Below, one piece after another: positions 48,968 through 53,452 of a stretch of 64,000 nucleotides of DNA. This stretch comes from Pseudomonas sp. S06B 330 (lineage in GTDB: Bacteria; Pseudomonadota; Gammaproteobacteria; Pseudomonadales; Pseudomonadaceae). Numbering within the stretch: position 1 is the first letter of the stretch; every line of letters begins with the position of its first letter. Location of the stretch: assembly GCF_002845275.2 (NCBI RefSeq), contig NZ_CP088149.1:4460501-4524500 (forward strand), in the 5' to 3' direction. Both the position numbers and the translations under genes were made by a program. Below the pieces are notes generated by a model, which was not told where the DNA came from, did not search any database, and was given only the letters and a program-made list of their open reading frames with translations.

Positions 48968-51310
48968 TTAGACAACATGGGGAGCGTCGTACAGCTGACG
49001 GCTGGTAGCCTGACTGACAAGCCCATCGAATTCGCGGCGGACAATCGCGCCCACTTCCTGGGCAAGCTGCATGGGGTCGCTCAGCCCGCCCTGGACGGTA
49101 AATGGCATGTTGGGTGCGAACGTGAACTGCTGGTTGATCTGGGGCGCCGGTCCTCGTTCCTGCACTGGCGCACCGGCAAGGCTGGCCATGCTGGACTGCG
49201 TTGTAGGTTGGCCAGCCAAAGCGCGCACAACGTCCCCCGGTCCCGATGTCTGCGGCGGCACGTTGTCAGCGGGCTGGGCAGAGGCGTTGCCTGAAGCGTC
49301 CGAGCCAAACAGGCGTTTGCCCAGCCATCCGCCCAGGTTTTCGCCCCCCATGCCACCGATCATCGCGCCGATTGCACCGCCAACGGCGGTACCTAACACC
49401 GGCACTACCGAGCCCAATGCCGCACCTGCGGCCGCACCGGCCAAGGCACCGCCAAAGCCGCCGGCGGCAGCACCGTAACCTTTGGCCTTTTCATCGACGG
49501 TGCGCGCGTTTCGGTAGGTGTCGACAACCCCGAGACCGGCGCCGATCAGATTCCCGCCTGGCACTCGCTTGAGCAGCCCACCGAATTTGCTTGCACCACT
49601 GGCCAGACGCGCAACACCTCCGCCAACTCCCGGTGTTGACGCGGGAGCAGGTGTGCTCCGAGCGGATGAAGTGCTGCGTCGTGCATTACGCGAATTGCCC
49701 TGACGACGCCGTGAGGTACGTCGCCCTCCGGGGTTACCTGGCCCGGCACCGCCACCGGTAAAGTCACCGGCATTGACCACGAACACCTTCAACGGCTCGG
49801 TTCCCATACCCGCACCTTGCGGGCTGTCCTCGCCACCAAAGCCCAGTACCTTGAGACCGATATTCATCAACCTCGACACCCTGCCCGGCTTGGCACCGGG
49901 CGGGTCTTTCGCAGTGACCTCCTTGAACAAACCTCGACCGACGTTCAGCACCCCCTTACCCATCTGCACCACACTGGCAACCGCCGTCAGTGCAGAAATA
50001 GCCGCACCGACTGCGGCAATGCCGAGCACCAGTGGCTGGGCTTTGTCAGTCAATGCGGTAAAGGCTTGGGCGACGAAGGTGATGACCTTGGCTGTGTTGT
50101 CGGTCAGCGGCCGGATAGCGTCCCCCATACTTCGCATCGACTCATCGATCGCCTGGTAGGCCTCGTTCCAGATTTGCACCGACGTTTCTCGACGCGCGCG
50201 CAGGTCGCTGTCGAGCCCACCCTTGGCTTGTGGCGCAATGTCCCGATATTGCGTGTACAGCGTTTGGTTCGGGGCAAATCCCATCAAGGCAGCGCTAATC
50301 TGCTCTGGCACATCGAGCTGTGCCTGGGCCTTCTGCGGATCAGCTTCCTTACTCATCTGCGCGCTGGCGAGACTCGATAACCAACTGCCCAGATTGCTGG
50401 CCGCTTGATCGGAACTGCCTGTGGCGCTGCGTTGCACCTGCAACATCGCCCCCACCTGACTGACGGCACTCAGGCCAGTGGTACCCAGGCCACTCATTTT
50501 TTCCAGCAACGGTGCCAACGACGTCGCCAGGTCGGCCGCTTCGAAGCCCCCGGCCTTGGTCTGCGCTGCGATCACCTCCAAAGCGCTTTCCATGACCATA
50601 GGATCAGTGATCTTGGCGTTCGCCTGTAACGCGTTGATGATGCCCGCAGTATCAGCGCCACTGACGCCCTGACCGACAGCAAATTTCGCTGCCAGCGGAG
50701 CGTAAGCCAGCGCCGTGTCTGCCTTCATGCCACCATCAACCAGGCTTCTGACCATGTTGGCCACGTCGTTACGCGCCATCCCGGTCGATTGCGAGGTGGT
50801 GATGAAGGTACGAGCCATCTGCTTTTCCTGTGGCTCGCCAGCCACCCCGGCCTTAATCGCAATATCGCGGACGATGCTTTGAAAGTCCGCACTGATCATT
50901 GCCGGTATCGCAATGGCCTTAACACCTGTGACCGCACGGCCAATACCGGCCTTGCCGTCGGCCCACTGTTGCCTGCCTTTGGCTTGCAGTTCGCTGCCTT
51001 CGAGCGCACGACCCAGCGCCTGGTATTGCTCTCGCAATTTGCTGACATCGACGCCTTGACTACGCAGGCTATTACGCGCTTTGTCGAGTCTGCTTTGCAT
51101 GGCTGAAGCAGCACTTGAACCACTTCTCTGCGCGGCCCTGACGGCCTCGTCCAGGCGCATCACATCACCGATGGCGTTCCTCAGCACCCGAGGTTGATTT
51201 CCCTCCTGTTGCACTTGTTTGATTCGGTCTTCGACCGTGTTGAAAACGGCACCTACCGTCGGTTTGACGGCGGCACCGATCACCAGCTCAACAGCCAGTT
51301 TGCTCGCCAT
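48968..51310 (-). CDS. T: Tail tape measure protein (gpT)
   Basis: 780 residues from MASKLAVELVIGAA at 51310 (GGGAGA upstream). A helical N-terminal part with TP901-type core motifs (about 100-400), a hydrophobic segment (AVGAAISALTAVASVVQ) and a Gly/Ala-rich membrane-like region (about 630-700, GGALAGAAAGAALG). It sets tail length; about 780 residues predicts a tail of roughly R-pyocin size. It follows E' by 29 bases. Confidence 0.92.
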   Translation of the reverse strand: MASKLAVELVIGAAVKPTVGAVFNTVEDRIKQVQQEGNQPRVLRNAIGDVMRLDEAVRAAQRSGSSAASAMQSRLDKARNSLRSQGVDVSKLREQYQALGRALEGSELQAKGRQQWADGKAGIGRAVTGVKAIAIPAMISADFQSIVRDIAIKAGVAGEPQEKQMARTFITTSQSTGMARNDVANMVRSLVDGGMKADTALAYAPLAAKFAVGQGVSGADTAGIINALQANAKITDPMVMESALEVIAAQTKAGGFEAADLATSLAPLLEKMSGLGTTGLSAVSQVGAMLQVQRSATGSSDQAASNLGSWLSSLASAQMSKEADPQKAQAQLDVPEQISAALMGFAPNQTLYTQYRDIAPQAKGGLDSDLRARRETSVQIWNEAYQAIDESMRSMGDAIRPLTDNTAKVITFVAQAFTALTDKAQPLVLGIAAVGAAISALTAVASVVQMGKGVLNVGRGLFKEVTAKDPPGAKPGRVSRLMNIGLKVLGFGGEDSPQGAGMGTEPLKVFVVNAGDFTGGGAGPGNPGGRRTSRRRQGNSRNARRSTSSARSTPAPASTPGVGGGVARLASGASKFGGLLKRVPGGNLIGAGLGVVDTYRNARTVDEKAKGYGAAAGGFGGALAGAAAGAALGSVVPVLGTAVGGAIGAMIGGMGGENLGGWLGKRLFGSDASGNASAQPADNVPPQTSGPGDVVRALAGQPTTQSSMASLAGAPVQERGPAPQINQQFTFAPNMPFTVQGGLSDPMQLAQEVGAIVRREFDGLVSQATSRQLYDAPHVV

Positions 51311-51339: not shown

Positions 51340-51504
51340 TCAGTCCGTGAGCCACCAGACCATGTCGCTGTACGACATGGTCATGATCTCGGTAGCGGCA
51401 AAATTCAGCTCTTTGGCGAGCCGTTTTGCCGCCGCCTTCTGCAGCCGAGGATCAAAGCTCGTCGTCTTGCACCAGACGAAAATAGCCCGCCTGCAAGCGG
51501 CCAT
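51340..51504 (-). CDS. Tail assembly chaperone E' (small frame downstream of E)
   Basis: 54 codons if started at its own ATG (51504). The convincing part begins after the E stop: DPRLQKAAAKRLAKELNFAA then MSYSDMVWWLTD, which has the gpE' pattern of P2-like tails. It overlaps the last 53 bases of E in the +1 frame. The ATG-proximal residues (AACRRAIFVWCK) look non-coding, so it is probably made by frameshift from E at CTT TGA (51457-51452). It ends 29 bases before the tape measure gene, the usual place. Confidence 0.7.
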   Translation of the reverse strand: MAACRRAIFVWCKTTSFDPRLQKAAAKRLAKELNFAATEIMTMSYSDMVWWLTD

Positions 51505-51754
51505 AGTCCTTCAGCGACAGGCCTTCCAAGTCCTTGACTCCGACTTCGGCCAGGGAAGCGAAGAGGTTGAGCTCACGCTGTTCGTCATCACCACTGGCCG
51601 CCGACTGCGCGGTGCGAATGTCGCGCACAGTGGGTGCGCGCATCGACAGATTGTCGACCTGCAGGCCGTTGGCCTCGCTGGGCTTGCTCAGATGGACGAC
51701 CACGCGCTCGGCGCTGACAGTCAACCAGCTCGGCGTTTTCGCAGTTTGTGTCAT
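51452..51754 (-). CDS. E: Tail assembly chaperone E (gpE)
   Basis: 100 residues, gpE/phage tail assembly chaperone family (LSKPSEANGLQVDNLSMRAP; LSLKDYGRLQAGYF). It sits between tube and tape measure, the canonical chaperone position. Its last codons are GAG CTT TGA T; a +1 shift on CTT leads into E'. Confidence 0.88.
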   Translation of the reverse strand: MTQTAKTPSWLTVSAERVVVHLSKPSEANGLQVDNLSMRAPTVRDIRTAQSAASGDDEQRELNLFASLAEVGVKDLEGLSLKDYGRLQAGYFRLVQDDEL

Positions 51755-51763
51755 GACTGCTCC

Positions 51764-52273
51764 TTACAGGCCCAGGGCCGAACGTTGGGCGGCGAGCTGG
51801 TCGACACCGTTGATGACACGCTTCATACCCAGCGGATCGATTTCGTAGACCACGCGGCCGTCGACTTCGAGCTTGTAGTAAGTCACTGCAACGTTGTGCT
51901 TGATCTCGGCTTTGTCGCCGGGTTTCCAGTCGCCCATGTCGACTTCCTTCAGGGCGCCACGCAGCGTAACGATGACTGGGGTGATTTGGCCCTTGAGGCC
52001 TTTGAAGGCGCCGCGGAAGGTGCCGTTGAAAGCTGAACCGTCGGCCAGGCCGAAGAACTTCAGCGACTCGCGGCGCACGCCGGTGGTCACGAAGCCGGCT
52101 TCCTGCTTCTCCATGCCCTGATCGATCTCGATCGGCATGTCCATGCCGCCGGCACGGTGCTCCTCCATCTTCAGGGTGAGTTTCGGTAGGGTCAGGCTGG
52201 GGACGTCACCTTGAAAGCTGACGCCATCGACGAACAGGTTCAGGTTGGCCAGGGTTTCGGGAATCATTGCCAT
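51764..52273 (-). CDS. FII: Major tail tube protein (FII)
   Basis: 169 residues of the P2 FII family (MAMIPETLANLNLFVDG at the start; KAEIKHNVAVTYYKLEVDGR at the end). It polymerises into the inner tube driven through the envelope. It follows the sheath gene by 12 bases and precedes E by nine. Confidence 0.94.
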   Translation of the reverse strand: MAMIPETLANLNLFVDGVSFQGDVPSLTLPKLTLKMEEHRAGGMDMPIEIDQGMEKQEAGFVTTGVRRESLKFFGLADGSAFNGTFRGAFKGLKGQITPVIVTLRGALKEVDMGDWKPGDKAEIKHNVAVTYYKLEVDGRVVYEIDPLGMKRVINGVDQLAAQRSALGL

Positions 52274-52285
52274 GGTTATTGCTCC

Positions 52286-53452
52286 TTAAGCGGCTTGGTC
52301 GAGGACTTCGGTCAACCACTGGTTGGTGACCTCGACACGGAAGTTCGGGTTCTCGGCGGGCGGCACGTCGGTGAAACGGATGTTCCAGTAGACCTTGCCC
52401 TGCTCCAGCTGGCTGGCGGTGTTCAACTCGGGATCGGCGAACACCTCGAAATTGATGATTGCGCCCTGGGCCTTGAGATCACGCATGAACGCCTGCAGGC
52501 CTTCGGTGACATCACTGACGTAGGTGGCGGTGATCGAACGGTCGACCGCCCACTTGTGGCCGTAGAGGATCGCGTCCATGACGATATCCATGGTCCGCAC
52601 GCGGGTGACGAAGGCCCATTTCGGATCGCTGCTCAGGGTGCGGTTGCCCCACAGGCGGTAGCCGTCGTCGCGAATGATCGTGGTGATATTGGCGTTGTTG
52701 AGCAGGTTGGCCCGGCAGGTTTCGTCGCCGTCCAGGTACTCGATGGCACGGCCGGTACCGGTGATGCCGACAAACTCCTTGTTCGACGGCGAAGCCCAGA
52801 AGCCGTACTCGCTGTCGGTGTAGGCAAACAGCCCGGCGACCCAGGCCGATGCCGGTGCGTCGACCGTGGCACTGGCATCGGTGTCCCAATACTTGACTCC
52901 CGGATCGACCAGAAACGCGCGCTTGGCACCAAAGTTCTCGGCGTAGGCGATAGCGGCTTCGTCGGTGCTATTGGGGCCGTCGATGATGGCCAGGCCGCGT
53001 AGCTTATCGGCCAGCGCTACCAGGGCGGTGCCGACGGCCTGGGTGGCACTGTGCTTGGGTGTCACCAGCAGCCGTGGCTGGGCGTTGAAACGACTTTTAC
53101 CGTCGAGCAGCGCCTGCAGGCCGGTACGAGTGCCGTCGGCCAAAACGCCGCCGATGATGGCCGATGTTTGCTCGGCAGCGTCTTCAAGCTTGGCCACGCC
53201 GCAGGCGACAATCACCGCCTTGGCGCGGGTGTAGATAGCCTGACAGGCCTTGGTGATCGCCGAGCCAGCACCGAAGGCCGCCACCGCTTCGCGCTCGCTG
53301 GTGATCAACACCAGGTCATTGGCCTTGGCGCTGGCGCCTGGGCCGGGGGTGAAGGTGTCGACCAGACCGATGATCGAGGACGACGGCAGTGCGATGGTGC
53401 GTGCGCCGGTGTCGACGTTGGTGACGGTAACGCCGTGGAAGAATCCACTCAT
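52286..53452 (-). CDS. FI: Contractile tail sheath protein (FI)
   Basis: 388 residues of the P2 FI sheath family: MSGFFHGVTVTNVDTGART at the N-terminus and NIRFTDVPPAENPNFRVEVT with the C-terminal strand exchange region. It contracts to push the tube. A contractile sheath shows this is an R-type and not an F-type particle. Confidence 0.95.
   Translation of the reverse strand: MSGFFHGVTVTNVDTGARTIALPSSSIIGLVDTFTPGPGASAKANDLVLITSEREAVAAFGAGSAITKACQAIYTRAKAVIVACGVAKLEDAAEQTSAIIGGVLADGTRTGLQALLDGKSRFNAQPRLLVTPKHSATQAVGTALVALADKLRGLAIIDGPNSTDEAAIAYAENFGAKRAFLVDPGVKYWDTDASATVDAPASAWVAGLFAYTDSEYGFWASPSNKEFVGITGTGRAIEYLDGDETCRANLLNNANITTIIRDDGYRLWGNRTLSSDPKWAFVTRVRTMDIVMDAILYGHKWAVDRSITATYVSDVTEGLQAFMRDLKAQGAIINFEVFADPELNTASQLEQGKVYWNIRFTDVPPAENPNFRVEVTNQWLTEVLDQAA

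Follow-up and report, generated by a model that had tools for sequence, protein, structure and literature searches.

In the R-type tailocin described here, two open reading frames, E and E', overlap between the genes for the tail tube and the tape measure protein, and the question is how E' comes to be translated and where the ribosome would change frame. Our reading, to which we give a probability of about 0.9 and which is drawn from sequence comparison, is that a +1 slip on TTT_C yields the long form of the tail chaperone. The initial annotation of the window (the whole stretch of 64,000 nucleotides that was analysed) had likewise proposed a programmed +1 shift joining E to E', placed at the CTT TGA that ends E and possibly coupled to release factor 2 (RF2). 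Comparison with relatives upholds the shift and speaks against both this site and the RF2 coupling.

Organization of the tail gene cluster

By the ORF list, the tailocin lies on the minus strand of the window, flanked by mutS and cinA/recA; gene names around it were assigned by eye. Prophage-like tail clusters have been described at the mutS-cinA/recA site in P. fluorescens strains (PMC2647930; this and the other sources given by PMC number are quoted from excerpts). The gene order is sheath, tube, E/E' and tape measure. Sheath, tube, E and tape measure all match Pfam families, and a Pfam search with the E' part gave no match. Two overlapping ORFs thus lie between the tube and tape measure genes, and the first has the known chaperone domain PF10109. 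The features are as follows.

52286..53452, minus strand: tail sheath protein FI (PF04984)
51764..52273, minus strand: tail tube protein FII (PF04985)
51452..51754, minus strand: gene E, tail assembly chaperone, 100 amino acids (PF10109, 69.8 bits, cut-off 25)
51511..51513, minus strand: TGA closing the E' frame upstream, the limit of the overlap
51502..51504, minus strand: ATG in the E' frame, conserved in 32/186 loci only
51478..51481, minus strand: candidate +1 slip site TTT_C (Phe92, UUU to UUC); the next zero-frame codon is CGT
51340..51477, minus strand: E' part, read in the +1 frame after the putative slip, VWCKTTSFDPRLQKAAAKRLAKELNFAATEIMTMSYSDMVWWLTD, then TGA (51342-51340)
51452..51457, minus strand: CTT TGA including the E stop codon, the site first proposed
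51454-51452, minus strand: E stop TGA, the predicted endpoint for non-shifting ribosomes
48968..51310, minus strand: tape measure protein (Pfam match); its start, ATG 51310, was picked by eye and is preceded by AGGGGAG

E ends in GAC GAC GAG CTT TGA TCC, in agreement with the initial annotation. The E' tail is indeed in the +1 frame, but it has 37 residues beyond the E stop and not the 35 given at first. This frame is open between the TGA at 51513 and the TGA at 51342, and the E-E' fusion has 137 amino acids.

On this reading, the R-type tailocin would have its tail assembly chaperone in two forms, a short one (E) and a long one (E'). The majority of ribosomes would read E through to its own stop. 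In a minority, the peptidyl-tRNA-Phe on UUU (51481-51479) would slip +1, pair with UUC and skip 51478, and the shifted product would join E residues 1-92 to 45 E' residues. By analogy with G and GT of lambda, the E part may coat the tape measure and the E' part may recruit the tube protein. The +1 rather than -2 direction, the minority status of the shifted form and these functions are what we infer.

Relatives and profiles

Relatives were collected as 64 loci from one scan of species genomes, 80 loci from viral contigs (80 kept of 213), 20 loci related to record OQ658366.1, and 90 loci from Pseudomonadaceae genomes, of which 30 were taken as the scan gave them and 60 were hand-picked for duplicated E and for spread. 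The 20 loci are called R-pyocin-like, a label that rests on the P. aeruginosa host of OQ658366.1 and on its 386-residue sheath, which we take to match that of R2 pyocin. Together with the window, phage records and class-level loci, 293 loci were scanned with a profile of E and a profile of the E' tail. The tail profile was built solely from residues beyond the E stop, so the slip site was not presupposed. The number of distinct loci (182, 186 or 185) varies with the stretch used for removing copies. As the loci are related and were mostly found by similarity to the E of the window, relatedness inflates every count given below.

The rows used for constraint, surroundings and the DNA tree (186, 185) were chosen for one TTT_C near the E end and therefore test the surroundings of TTT_C, not its presence. 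Its presence was tested by the tail-profile scan (182/182) and by a count of the motif YF.[LM] over all E ORFs.

Conservation of the E' frame

The tail-profile scan placed E' in the +1 frame in 217 of the 293 loci (182 distinct) and in the -1 frame in 6. Another 63 had E and no tail match, and 7, one of them Mu, had no E match. Of the 63 loci without a tail match, most are P2-like and were assigned to -1 on visual inspection; a small number are truncated contigs (L102 and L263 among them), and four (L211, L236, L245 and L249) form a different +1 group. Going by this comparison, the overlap of E and E' is not a chance one and the two are a real pair.

In 85 of 186 distinct loci, no ATG, GTG or TTG occurs in the E' frame anywhere between its upstream stop and the stop of E. 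The E' tail is thus conserved while its start codon is not, and its translation calls for a frameshift. Natural in-frame E-E' fusions were absent among the best 120 of 606 protein matches, a weak negative since all of these are duplicated-E proteins. A tblastn search of phage records with a 39-residue piece of the tail gave no match, though OQ658366.1, which is among them, carries the tail; that search was thus too insensitive to count as evidence.

The proposed slip site TTT_C

TTT_C was found in frame within the E/E' overlap in all 182 distinct +1 loci, and the next commonest +1 tetramer that re-pairs perfectly, GGG_C, in 38 of them. By sequence, the site is thus UUU followed by a pyrimidine, with the downstream product in the +1 frame. 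It sits 24 nt upstream of CTT_TGA. The distance from TTT to the E stop ranges over the 182 loci from 6 to 30 codons and is 9 codons in 141. Over 186 loci, the slip is confined to an interval that opens 14 nt before the first base of TTT and closes 18 nt after it, as set by the closest upstream E'-frame stop (L252) and the closest downstream E stop (L062). TTT_C is kept without NTT before the stop in L058 and L059 (CTG TAA) and in L062 (AGC TGA), all from the species-genome scan.

The R-pyocin-like loci (L154 and L161-L180; 21/21 loci, 19 distinct) have the E stop 15 or 23 codons past TTT, and in all of them the +1 frame reads FAWC straight after the slip codon.

The codon itself is also held constant. 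Over all E ORFs, redundant loci counted, the Phe of YF.[LM] is TTT in 216 and TTC in 1 (L223), an ORF of PF10109 and YF-LV type that has no E' tail match, while Phe codons further upstream in E are TTC in 157 cases and TTT in 45. Against this, TTT before C is not rare in long stop-to-stop ORFs, with a share of 0.33 of the Phe codons before C. On the DNA tree of 185 rows, 16 changes are needed for a Phe codon elsewhere in E and 19 for the Tyr codon that precedes the slip. The position of the slip site at TTT_C is supported by these comparisons.

Constraint on E downstream of TTT

If both frames are translated from TTT on, synonymous variation in E should drop there, and it does. In the 143 loci whose E stop follows TTT by 9 codons, the ratio of observed to expected synonymous diversity was 0.40 over the stretch that begins one codon ahead of TTT and ends at the stop, as compared with 0.82, 0.86 and 0.83 for three upstream stretches. 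In 186/186 loci a Trp comes first or second after TTT_C. The E leucine lying over this Trp (136 of the 143 loci have leucine) is encoded by CTG in 133 and TTG in 3, both of which keep TGG in the E' frame. The next E valine is GTG in 128/135; the 7 GTC turn E' Cys into Ser. CAG and CAA interchange freely in E (Arg or Lys in E'), and GAC to GAT, which makes E' Thr Met, is rare (8/140 and 1/141). The pattern supports coding in both frames from TTT_C onward.

CTT TGA and other proposed routes to E'

CTTTGA stands at the E end in 83 of 182 distinct loci, so the conservation that the first proposal had called for is lacking. NTT followed by a stop occurs in 142 of the 182: CTTTGA in 83, GTTTGA in 41, GTTTAA in 11, CTTTAA in 3, ATTTGA in 2, and TTTTGA and GTTTAG in 1 each. 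In our view, CTT TGA is probably kept in place by the E' codons that overlap it, TTT GAT CCT.

It is unlikely that two sites act together, mainly TTT_C with minor +1 slippage at NTT_TRA, which would be a sub-case of the TTT_C model. NTT_T is kept in 142/182 loci and a slip at either place yields a product of 137 amino acids, but the E' codons TTT GAY CCN account for NTT_TRA without any slip, and GTT is common beside CTT (41+11+1 against 83+3).

A slip of -2 near the same TTT, as in Mu, would reach the same net frame with one extra residue (LQAGYFFVWCK), and the Mu record is annotated with a verified -2 shift. Such a slip would move the Phe tRNA back by two bases onto poorly matching triplets, pairing being worst in the 64 of 186 loci where TAC precedes TTT and in the 5 with ACC, AAC or CGC there, whereas a +1 slip gives UUC always. 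On these grounds we regard a -2 shift as very improbable; it is disfavoured by pairing alone.

Slippage at CTT_TGA itself, as initially proposed, would have a Leu tRNA move +1 on CTT with TGA in the A site and would couple tail assembly to RF2. CTT TGA is present where it was said to be and NTT plus stop is common. The host itself uses such a site in prfB, where the gene goes from GGGGG TAT CTT TGA C into its +1 frame. Shifts of +1 are favoured by a slow A site (PMC5009743). Of the 142 NTT loci, 94 have C after TGA, a context disfavouring strong termination, and 32 have T; the use of GAC and GAT for the overlapping E' Asp codon can, however, explain this. None of the 21 R-pyocin-like loci has a stop at this place, and yet their E' keeps to the +1 frame. 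Ahead of CTT_TGA, the +1 frame is under coding constraint. CTT is often replaced by GTT; CUU_U was by far the most efficient in prfB tests (PMC5009743). NTT before the stop is missing in 40 of 182 loci, and 15 of the other 142 end in TAA or TAG; RF2 specificity is thus not kept. Compared by eye with host prfB, the window has no Shine-Dalgarno-like element near the slip codon: E at CTT TGA lacks the G-run upstream and has T after TGA, and the mean duplex energy at the NTT codon is -3.09. CUU_UGA is not conserved at the junction. In the RECODE data as treated for PRFect, every +1 entry of the CUU-stop kind is prfB (PMC10885494). The tempting link to RF2 is corrected here as unsupported, and slippage at CTT_TGA alone seems to us even less credible than a -2 shift.

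Least probable of all is that E' is a separate protein made by coupled re-initiation at the ATG at 51504, which lies in the E' frame of the window with AAGGA directly upstream; we reject it because start codons are not conserved, an ATG being there in 32 of 186 loci and 85 of 186 lacking ATG, GTG and TTG up to the E stop.

Duplicated E genes

In some Pseudomonas tailocins, E is tandemly duplicated inside one ORF (proteins P0002-P0121; loci L060 and L212-L222). Such genes offer a natural test of the +1 slip at TTT_C, since only the second copy is joined to E'. Among the best 120 of 606 protein matches, the second copy has Phe at the slip position in 120/120, and the first copy has Ser in 111 and Ala in 9; the 120 proteins may stem from few duplications. 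The 12 DNA loci agree on this pattern, L060 and L216 being the same E.

Direction of the proposed shift among relatives

More distant relatives have their E' in the -1 frame, and a -1 slip could plausibly occur at the corresponding Phe codon (AAT_TTT, GGT_TTT, CGT_TTT and similar); Persinger has TTC at this Phe. Of the class-level loci with an E match, about 15/18 were read as -1, and L285, L286 and L291 have no clear E'. In a second, distant Pseudomonas group with PF10109 (L211, L236, L245 and L249), the downstream frame is +1 and TTT_C lies in the overlap, its form being TTT_CAA or TTT_CGG on visual inspection.

A tree of 73 E domains has two changes between -1 and +1 forced by starred branches; it is an unrooted tree of 97 columns made by a quick method, with 39 of 70 inner branches open, its stars are less safe with long rows, and many of the -1 labels were assigned by eye. 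We somewhat favour the view that slippage has persisted on one Phe codon, at the end of the chaperone gene, and that its direction can switch in evolution: -1 in most of the relatives read, and +1 at TTT_C in two separate Pseudomonas lineages, namely the R-type tailocins including the R-pyocin-like ones and the second small group. The duplicated E copy that is not joined to E' would have lost both the Phe and the slip site. If so, the direction of a programmed frameshift may flip while both protein parts stay homologous, and -1 and +1 relatives can be compared within one family.

In the Foxunavirus loci L148 and L157, E' is annotated as a separate gene (Murka) or as a hypothetical protein (FoX1). 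In both phages the end of E is overlapped by the homologous tail, which lies in the -1 frame (CGT_TTT_ACC).

Comparison with known frameshift sites

Frameshifting in tail chaperone genes is known with steps of -1, -2 and +1 (PMC5009743). The -1 shift of P2 and the -2 shift of Mu, which the initial annotation had cited, are annotated as such in their records. Like the pair described here, E and E+E' of P2 (AF063097) lie between tube and tape measure genes, E is matched by the E profile (which included it), and the annotated shift is at a Phe codon near the E end (GGT TTT TTG). The P2 shift, however, is -1 on T_TTT_TTG, whereas E' here is in the +1 frame, with TTT_C. A homology between the F-x-W start of E' and the FHW motif of P2 E' was considered and dropped, the P2 motif lying about 30 residues further on. 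Mu gp41 (AF083977) is also a tail assembly chaperone with the same net frame (+1 equals -2); it differs in its annotated -2 shift, against the +1 re-pairing proposed on TTT_C, and Mu E is not matched by the E profile. The chaperones of Burkholderia phage Mica and Achromobacter phage Mano have a homologous E and E' tail by the tail-profile match and are annotated as joined products, but their E' is in the -1 frame around AAT_TTT_ACC and GGT_TTT_CTC.

In the excerpts consulted, UUU_Ynn is described as especially prone to +1 shifts in bacteria (PMC5009743), and UUU_CGN is a +1 site established for influenza A PA-X (PMC3498833) and proposed for plant amalgaviruses (PMC5052127). There, as we propose here, UUU in the P site slips to UUC ahead of CGN (PMC3498833, PMC5052127); the hosts are eukaryotic and the genes are others, and PA-X has UCC before UUU against UAU or UAC here. 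For the HF1-group haloviruses, TTT-CGC was proposed as the chaperone shift site from six aligned genomes, by authors who themselves call for experiments (PMC7230728). Their chaperone pair is also upstream of the tape measure gene and also uses the +1 frame; these viruses are archaeal, and the likeness noted is one of motif, frame and gene position (PMC7230728). By these accounts, UUU_CGN is already known as a +1 site and already proposed for the tail chaperones of the HF1 group.

A +1 programmed shift in a tail gene is also described for SPP1, at CCC before a stop, but in the tube gene and not the chaperone, the SPP1 chaperone pair having a putative -1 shift (PMC6316719). prfB resembles the present case in a +1 slip on a P-site codon containing UU, and the motif CTT TGA is shared; it differs in its A-site stop and its upstream Shine-Dalgarno-like element, neither of which is at the TTT_C site.

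The arrangement appears to be a known kind of device in an unusual direction, with +1 slippage at a fixed Phe codon and not at a stop. In the full-text literature searched, whose coverage leaves most subscription journals outside, no report was found of a TTT_C site in Pseudomonas tailocins or R-pyocins, and the excerpts of PMC3711429 and PMC5411513 had no bearing on it. For Pseudomonas R-type tailocins and R-pyocin-like particles, this amounts to a precise and testable candidate slip site in the chaperone pair.

Sequence surroundings of the proposed slip site

The codon before TTT is UAU or UAC in 181/186 loci. Anti-Shine-Dalgarno pairing upstream of TTT is unremarkable (mean -2.85, with stronger pairing elsewhere in E), and no stimulator of this kind was seen. 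A slow A site is not evident at TTT_C, since no arginine codons in the background set are commoner than CGC and CGT, the A-site codons here.

In the group with the stop at distance 9, the consensus fold 3' of the site was empty or weak (0 to -4.2). Folded singly, 50-nt stretches that begin 20-40 nt past TTT rank with the more stable ones of the region (-18.5 to -19.9), and stretches 80-100 nt past TTT also fold comparatively well. A match to the Rfam family RF02876, at 19.8 bits against a threshold of 40, was taken as chance. Not singled out by the consensus fold, a perfect 9-bp inverted repeat (ACCATGTCG / CGACATGGT, loop 5) lies within E' at window positions 51359-51381, near the start of the tape measure gene.
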